Program-made: the position numbers and the translations under genes
In this document: piece by piece, positions 460-23,410 of the stretch
Layout of the letters: every line of letters begins with the position of its first letter
Position numbering within the stretch: position 1 is the first letter of the stretch
Notes under the pieces: model-generated
The model's database searches: none
What the model was told of the DNA's origin: nothing
The model's input: the letters and a program-made list of their open reading frames with translations, nothing else
From: an uncultured Acetobacteraceae bacterium
GTDB taxonomy: Bacteria; Pseudomonadota; Alphaproteobacteria; Acetobacterales; Acetobacteraceae
Direction: 5' to 3'
Length of the DNA stretch: 51,902 bases
Assembly: GCA_902805625.1 (NCBI GenBank)
Contig: CADCTL010000166.1
Location: 1 to 51,902, forward strand

Positions 460-808
460 GGTCCCAGTCCCACTCGGCGGAAACGCTCGCCCCGCCGGAA
501 CGAGAACGGTAAACTCCTCCCGCCGACGCGCGGACCGCGCCATTCGTCCGAAGACGGCCGGTGTGGGGCAGCAAGATAGTAAGCCAGTAAGATGGTAAGG
601 CAGGCGGAAAGTAAGGCCAGAGGGGGAAGGGAAGCGCCACGGCACCCGCGCCCCGATCAAGGCCGGTCGCCGGCCCCGGTGCCCCTGGACCCGTATATTT
701 CACGTTTGCGCCGCCGGGGGCGCGGCCTTAGTGTCCGGCCTGACCGGGTGACCGCGGGCAAGCGCCCGCCAGCGTCGCTCGCCACGGACAGGATCATCGG
801 AACTTCAC
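460..808. other. gene-free stretch before tatA
   Basis: I find no convincing gene here. The stretch is less GC-rich than its flanks. It holds a short inverted repeat (531-550) followed by an octamer repeat (571-618), both annotated separately, and then GC-rich sequence with a small AT-rich patch near 697-708 (GTATATTTCACG) that could belong to a tatA promoter. Open frames crossing it have poor codon composition. Confidence 0.6.
531..618 (+). repeat. hairpin plus GTAAGNNN octamer array, copy 1
   Basis: CGGAC (531-535) can pair with GTCCG (546-550). TCGTCCGAA lies at 544-552. After an 18-base spacer come six consecutive 8-base units from 571: gcaagata, gtaagcca, gtaagatg, gtaaggca, ggcggaaa, gtaaggcc. 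Four of the six match GTAAGNNN exactly and all sit in strict 8-base phase. A second element with the same order of parts lies at 23322-23387. The function is unknown. Confidence 0.7.
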
Positions 809-12867: not shown

Positions 12868-14732
<1,865 letters not shown>

Positions 14733-23188: not shown

Positions 23189-23410
23189 GTGGGCGCGGCC
23201 ACCTCAAGCCAGCAAAAAAGGCCTTGGCTCACGTCCGCCTGCCATGCTTTGACACGTCAAAACGATTATAGGAATGTCGTCTTTATAAACTGCTTATCCT
23301 GTGCCCTGAGCCCATCGCACTGGACGCACATCGTCCGAAACACCCCGAAAACCGGGTAAGACGGTAAGGAAGTAAGGAACAAAGGCCGACGCCCCGCCGG
23401 CCCGCCGCCG
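23189..23410. other. AT-richer gap between terC and a crotonase
   Basis: No gene is seen. The gap is clearly lower in GC than its surroundings. It contains TTGAC-AC-GTCAA (23249-23260, an inverted repeat). A perfect TATAAT lies on the minus strand (23270-23265) without a convincing -35. The second copy of the hairpin-octamer element is at 23322-23387. Confidence 0.5.
23322..23387 (+). repeat. hairpin plus GTAAGNNN octamer array, copy 2
   Basis: GGACG (23322-23326) and CGTCC (23332-23336) form a stem with a five-base loop, and TCGTCCGAA is at 23331-23339. After a 16-base spacer come gtaagacg, gtaaggaa, gtaaggaa and caaaggcc in strict 8-base phase from 23356. The same parts in the same order and orientation occur at 531-618, there with six units. 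Confidence 0.7.

Follow-up and report, generated by a model that had tools for sequence, protein, structure and literature searches.

The GTAAGNNN octamers in the stretch of DNA analysed here (the window, 51,902 nucleotides from an uncultured Acetobacteraceae bacterium) are probably operators of an orphaned VapB-like antitoxin of the AbrB/MazE/SpoVT fold that has turned into a genome-wide DNA binder. A rough probability of 0.75 is given to this reading, which is drawn from comparison of genomes.

Octamer arrays in the window and in the genome

Array 1, proposed here as an operator of the orphan AbrB-like protein, is located at positions 571 to 618 on the forward strand and is composed of GCAAGATA GTAAGCCA GTAAGATG GTAAGGCA GGCGGAAA GTAAGGCC. 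An earlier inspection of the letters (the sequence-only reading) had described six octamers in unbroken register, of which four read GTAAGNNN, and re-reading the letters bears this out. Array 2 lies between convergent genes at 23356 to 23379 on the forward strand and has three phased GTAAG octamers, GTAAGACG GTAAGGAA GTAAGGAA. Both arrays are preceded by TCGTCCGAA (544–552 in copy 1, 23331–23339 in copy 2), so the second copy does have the same order of parts, as had been claimed. This sequence belongs to a companion motif on the forward strand, TTCGTCCGAA at 543 to 552 in copy 1, which is conserved and is found 18 bp 5’ of the first octamer, and ATCGTCCGAA at 23330 to 23339 in copy 2. The pair motif with at most one mismatch occurs five times in the window, compared with 0.15 expected from shuffles.

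The genome to which the window belongs (3.77 Mb in 307 contigs, 77% complete) was counted by pattern searches and by fetching 70 arrays with their flanks, hence a figure of at least 70 arrays. Exact GTAAG-N3-GTAAG gives 173 pairs and 101 triples, with none of either for the reversed-pattern control. Two GTAAG separated by 1 to 22 bases give 217 matches (control, 12), and the GTAAG-to-GTAAG spacing is 8, 16, or 24 bp in 100 of 100 among the matches listed. TTNGTCCGAA followed 10 to 30 bp on by GTAAG has 36 matches genome-wide and none in the control. The sequence-only reading was to be abandoned if phased counts were no higher than in a control, or if the arrays had no tie to the TCGTCCGAA part; with 173 and 101 against 0, and 36 against 0, it stands. 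Its suggestion of a dispersed repeat family is right insofar as at least 70 copies exist.

Most of the 70 arrays have four or five units, with the octamer consensus GTAAG[G/A][C/A/T][G/A]. GCG follows the last octamer in 48 of them, and in some copies, including the array of the window, the phase continues through GGCGGAAA to another GTAAG. The linking bases and the number of units vary between copies while GTAAG is constant, and many copies in this genome are alike in the array only. Tandem clusters of arrays are present at L055, L063, L065, L070, L086, and L095. At L041/L080 and L046/L087 the array regions are paralogous on both sides (82–96% protein identity), so that either the array was copied along with the genes around it or these are near-copies in the assembly.

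Two coding explanations were rejected. A mini-ORF within the array (ATG GTA AGG MAG TAA) does not hold in general, although an ATG often stands behind the first unit. GTAAG might serve to stop translation in all three frames, since the 8-bp phase places TAA in each of them, but the arrays are outside genes and mostly well past the stop codon.

The AbrB-like gene and its relatives

Triple arrays match in 20 genomes of a family sample of 397, and four of these 20 were set aside as single odd matches or simple tandem repeats. The genomes left out of the array count for simple tandem repeats or single unlike matches were G013, G046, G095, G151, and G033. About 16 genomes, belonging to at least five genera, have real arrays, among them Roseococcus suduntuyensis (G139) and Humitalea rosea (G005). 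The arrays are far more numerous in some of these genomes than in others, with counts from about 2 to at least 70.

The recurring neighbour of the arrays is the gene of a small protein (MLAKLTAKNQLTLPKRVVDALGNPTHFEIQVHKGALILWP...), about 65 to 95 amino acids long and 79 in Roseococcus suduntuyensis, which has an array in its promoter, CTTACNNNCTTAC on the coding strand. This array often overlaps the presumed −10 region of the AbrB-like gene. In the genome of the window, the gene is on contig C160 (L076:1267–1548, reverse strand), with two four-unit arrays upstream and TTCGTCCGAA between them. Strong homologues (E < 1e-20, alignment search) occur in 16 of the 397 genomes, and phased CTTAC repeats are found directly 5’ of the start in all 16. 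Gene and arrays coincide, with 14 genomes common to the 16 with the gene and the 16 with arrays (p = 6e-22); some of the counted arrays are the gene’s own operator, and most array genomes have further arrays elsewhere. The agreement is kept within the two best-sampled genera (p = 2e-4) and is therefore not due only to shared ancestry. G380 is an exception, with one triple array and no AbrB-like gene detected. G016 and G401 have the gene and no triple array, only short operators at the gene itself, and in G060 the gene is cut by a contig end.

The AlphaFold model of the protein encoded in this genome (pLDDT 84) best matches AbrB, SpoVT, and MazE domains. The top Foldseek matches are AbrB (9a4b, 1z0r with a TMt of 0.71, and 1yfb), SpoVT, and MazE, and nine of the ten best are from these families. 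The Foldseek E-values do not reach significance, as a short domain would lead one to expect, and the Pfam MazE match is below its cut-off. From the model, the protein is predicted to have a swapped-hairpin AbrB-like N-terminal domain of the AbrB/MazE/SpoVT fold. No Pfam or NCBIfam match to the MraZ family model was found among the proteins scanned.

A further palindrome, AGGAATATATTCCT, fills the spacer from the −35-like box to the first CTTAC repeat in AbrB-like gene promoters of the Pseudoroseomonas type (L221, L222, L224, and L228), and may be bound by a second regulator. At L251 (Humitalea rosea), the orphan AbrB-like gene is followed by one for an antitoxin of the ParD type (Pfam PF03693); no such gene was found behind it in the few other genomes examined.

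A scan of 84,980 genomes in a public collection gave 80 homologues. Outside the roseomonads (beta- and gammaproteobacteria, cyanobacteria, and others), the gene typically has an inverted repeat, AAGTAAGGATTCCTTACTT (GTAAG-N5-CTTAC), on its 5’ side. GTAAG repeats lie within 120 bp upstream in 67 of the 80 homologues: 35 as exact inverted pairs, 19 as exact direct 8-bp pairs, and 13 as pairs of either kind with one mismatch. The control windows (n = 1457) have such repeats in 0.2% with one mismatch, and none are exact. The repeats that antitoxins carry in their own promoter are thus seen here at the level of sequence.

Nearly all inverted-repeat homologues have a PIN_3 toxin gene directly 3’ of the gene. 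A nearby PIN toxin is present in 0 of 28 roseomonad-clade entries, some genomes being listed twice. With the toxin absent beside the gene, the system described here is not a toxin–antitoxin pair. In a tree built from few columns, in which the protein of this genome has a long branch, the toxin-less orphans are all on one side of a single branch with support of 100/98. The C-terminal tail (..ADAVRAKLAELGI..DVADAVAWAR) is kept in the PIN-linked relatives and is diverged or shortened in the orphan clade, where the KNQ[LI]TLP core is unchanged. This tail is likely the toxin-binding part.

Another DNA-binding protein might bind the arrays, the AbrB-like gene being just one conserved target. Arrays at many places besides the AbrB-like gene would fit this, and a second conserved motif beside many arrays, TTYGTCCGAA, suggests that a further protein is involved. 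However, the same GTAAG half-site stands in another arrangement upstream of the distant homologues, leaving the AbrB-like protein as the common partner, and antitoxins of AbrB-like fold bind and repress their own operators (PMC4803016). The alternative is considered unlikely. Binding of the arrays by the AbrB-like protein itself is, on the comparisons above, probable.

Position and surroundings of the arrays

Genes were called with a simple codon-based caller, by which 84% of the sequence is coding. None of the 70 arrays is inside a called gene. Convergent gaps make up 22 of the 59 array-bearing gaps (37%), compared with 12% of the array-free gaps (15% by length; p of about 1e-6 and 1e-5). Among tandem genes, orientation is even (15 versus 13). 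A position after forward-strand genes, as first proposed, thus holds as enrichment between convergent genes and fails as an orientation preference among tandem genes. At L195:2466–2503 (G376), the array seems to span a gene junction, where the first GTAAG seems to contain the TAA that ends the upstream gene, and the last unit reaches the ATG of the next.

Upstream of the arrays, the conserved parts are TTYGTCCGAA and, about 60 to 70 bp before the array, a promoter-like stretch, not a hairpin. The two-part element first drawn at 531 to 618 is therefore retained in its array and its TCGTCCGAA part, loses its hairpin, and is longer, with a promoter-like stretch in front. The CGGAC/GTCCG stem (531–550, forward strand) is present in the letters (531–535 and 546–550), but CGGAC is lacking in other copies, most of which have CGARCC, and the stem is judged a chance feature of copy 1. 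Among 24 copies, no column pair shows convincing covariation, folding of the hairpin region equals that of shuffles (z of −0.16 and 0.09), and Rfam has no match in the window. These results rule against a structured RNA element, which the sequence-only reading had offered as one option.

TTYGTCCGAA occurs 77 times in this genome (control, 1), part of the copies being without arrays; the sequence suggests that part of them fall inside genes. Seven copies, spaced in tandem with a register of 40 bp (80 bp) and separated by GGCGCCTCC..CGC, have no GTAAG array; they are located on contig C80 (G000; 13001–13447, L326:502–947). Looser clusters are present in L327 and L328.

The promoter-like stretch before many arrays combines a −10-like hexamer (TACACT, TACAAT, or TAAACT), a CGCTCGC that is conserved, and a spacer rich in A. 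In copy 1 it spans 484 to 515 on the forward strand and points at the array, with CGCTCGC at 484–490, the spacer GGAACGAGAA at 497–506, and TAAACT at 510–515. Copy 2 has a second type, TTGAC...TAGGAAT...GTAAACT, at 23249 to 23291 on the forward strand (TTGACA at 23249–23254, TAGGAAT at 23269–23275, and TATAAACT at 23284–23291), and similar stretches precede L062, L073, L077, and L084. The sigma-70 score exceeds that of shuffles in this genome (p = 2e-13) and in some relatives; since the copies are homologous, the p value is not from independent samples and is suggestive only. In G320 (loci L196–L208), many arrays have promoter-like TTGACN-N16-17-TATA stretches and a conserved GCTGTTTTGACAACCGCATCCG on their 5’ side, and TTTGTCGCAA, similar to TTTGTCCGAA of the genome described here, is often found 3’ of the arrays.

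The promoter-like stretch pointing at the array and the enrichment at convergent 3’ ends would also suit arrays that act as RNA, with the CUUAC strand serving at gene ends as a Rho-utilisation site rich in C and U, or with the GUAAG strand in a small RNA family transcribed from the upstream stretch. The CTTAC strand, with 40% C, 37% T (77% pyrimidine), and 9% G, has a composition that fits a Rho-utilisation site. Such a site needs neither a strict 8-bp register nor a fixed GTAAG, however, and the missing covariation, stable fold, and Rfam match, the even orientation among tandem genes, and the inverted-repeat form at antitoxin promoters, which points to DNA operators, make an RNA role improbable.

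Nine array places of G231 recur at orthologous positions in G139 and G060, eight in all three species and one in two; in the third species, the array of the ninth place is probably on a contig end. The orthologous arrays have 3 to 8 units. All 171 aligned GTAAG columns are identical, compared with 70–83% in the flanks and 84% in the linking bases, a comparison that is biased because the arrays were found by GTAAG. The recurrence at nine places is free of that bias, and it indicates that the arrays were maintained in place in that Roseococcus-like genus and were not recently scattered. The flanking genes of dispersed arrays are mostly different between genera, so no obvious regulon emerges, and a regulon common to several genera was rejected. 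Mobile repeats of the REP or MITE type, in which recent copying alone would explain the conserved parts, would account for the many similar copies, several in tandem clusters, and for the differing copy numbers and flanking genes. This reading is very unlikely because the insertion sites, variable between close relatives in REP and MITE elements, are here at orthologous positions in three species from a related genus, GTAAG stays constant although the linking bases and the number of units change, many copies are alike in the array only, and no terminal palindrome was seen.

Proposed origin and comparison with known systems

A protein-binding array, also among the options first listed, is strongly supported by the co-occurrence of gene and arrays, the arrays in the gene’s promoter, the orthologous conservation, and the tree of toxin loss. 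The ancestors of the protein would have been antitoxins of PIN-toxin (VapBC-like) pairs, autoregulated through a single inverted repeat in the promoter, GTAAG-N5-CTTAC. One roseomonad clade of the Acetobacteraceae would then have lost the toxin gene, and the operator would have become an array of direct repeats with a period of 8 bp. Further such arrays would have arisen at other intergenic places, so that a genome now has from about 2 to at least 70, and been held by selection. The protein may bind the array cooperatively, with one unit per octamer, and would repress its own promoter, as the array overlaps or adjoins the −10 region.

At the dispersed sites, bound arrays would act mainly as a transcription block or boundary between neighbouring, often convergent, genes, a role that is held tentatively, at somewhat less than even odds. 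Alternatively, they may repress short transcripts from the upstream promoter-like stretch. A broader and more speculative idea is that an antitoxin without a toxin has become a chromosome-wide binder that coats 8-bp-phased arrays at dozens of gene ends. The arrays might then be sites of a new kind, bounding transcription or organising the nucleoid, and the protein would bind DNA in a spiral mode unlike that of known AbrB-fold complexes. The geometry counts against the operator reading as a whole, as an 8-bp direct repeat places successive units on different helix faces, and we know of no solved AbrB-fold complex that explains such binding.

VapBC-type pairs, in which an antitoxin of the AbrB/SpoVT/MazE fold is coupled with a PIN_3 toxin, share the KNQLTLP core, the fold, and GTAAG half-sites in the gene’s own promoter. 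The roseomonad clade differs from them in having no adjoining toxin, direct repeats in place of one inverted repeat, and many sites away from its own promoter. MraZ has an AbrB-like fold with two AbrB-like repeats per chain and is a member of the cell-division cluster. Its operator in Mollicutes consists of phased direct repeats, (AAAGTGKN3)3, with a period of 10 (PMC5282649). It is alike in its short core motif, fixed phase, and place in its own promoter; here, the period is 8, the protein has a single domain and no match to the MraZ family model, and there are dozens of sites.

AbrB of Bacillus subtilis is a global transition-state regulator. It has the same DNA-binding fold and many chromosomal sites, and differs in its varied targets, where the pentamer here is nearly invariant; the present protein is from a different lineage and has no known regulon. 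The sequences that AbrB recognises are varied (PMC4022651). REP/BIME-type repeats are likewise dispersed, intergenic, and common at 3’ ends; the arrays differ from them in having no conserved palindrome or hairpin, in places conserved between species, and in their tie to a gene of a DNA-binding protein. MqsA differs in keeping its toxin and in its fold, and we know of no phased arrays for it. The likeness lies in an antitoxin acting outside its own operon, as MqsA is reported to regulate genes beyond it (PMC4803016). No published orphan antitoxin with dozens of phased direct-repeat arrays was found in the literature searched, which most subscription journals lie outside, and neither a description of arrays of this kind nor a paper with the palindrome GTAAGGATTCCTTAC was found there.

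Standard annotation misses the arrays, which have no Rfam family, and is unreliable for the protein, which scores below the Pfam cut-off. An 8-bp direct-repeat mode would be a new structural question for the AbrB fold. The change from a toxin–antitoxin module to a global regulator would here be a concrete case readable from genomes: the toxin-bearing relatives, the inverted and direct operators, the loss of the toxin on a single branch, and the rise in the number of sites, from about 2 to at least 70, are all visible in living genomes.
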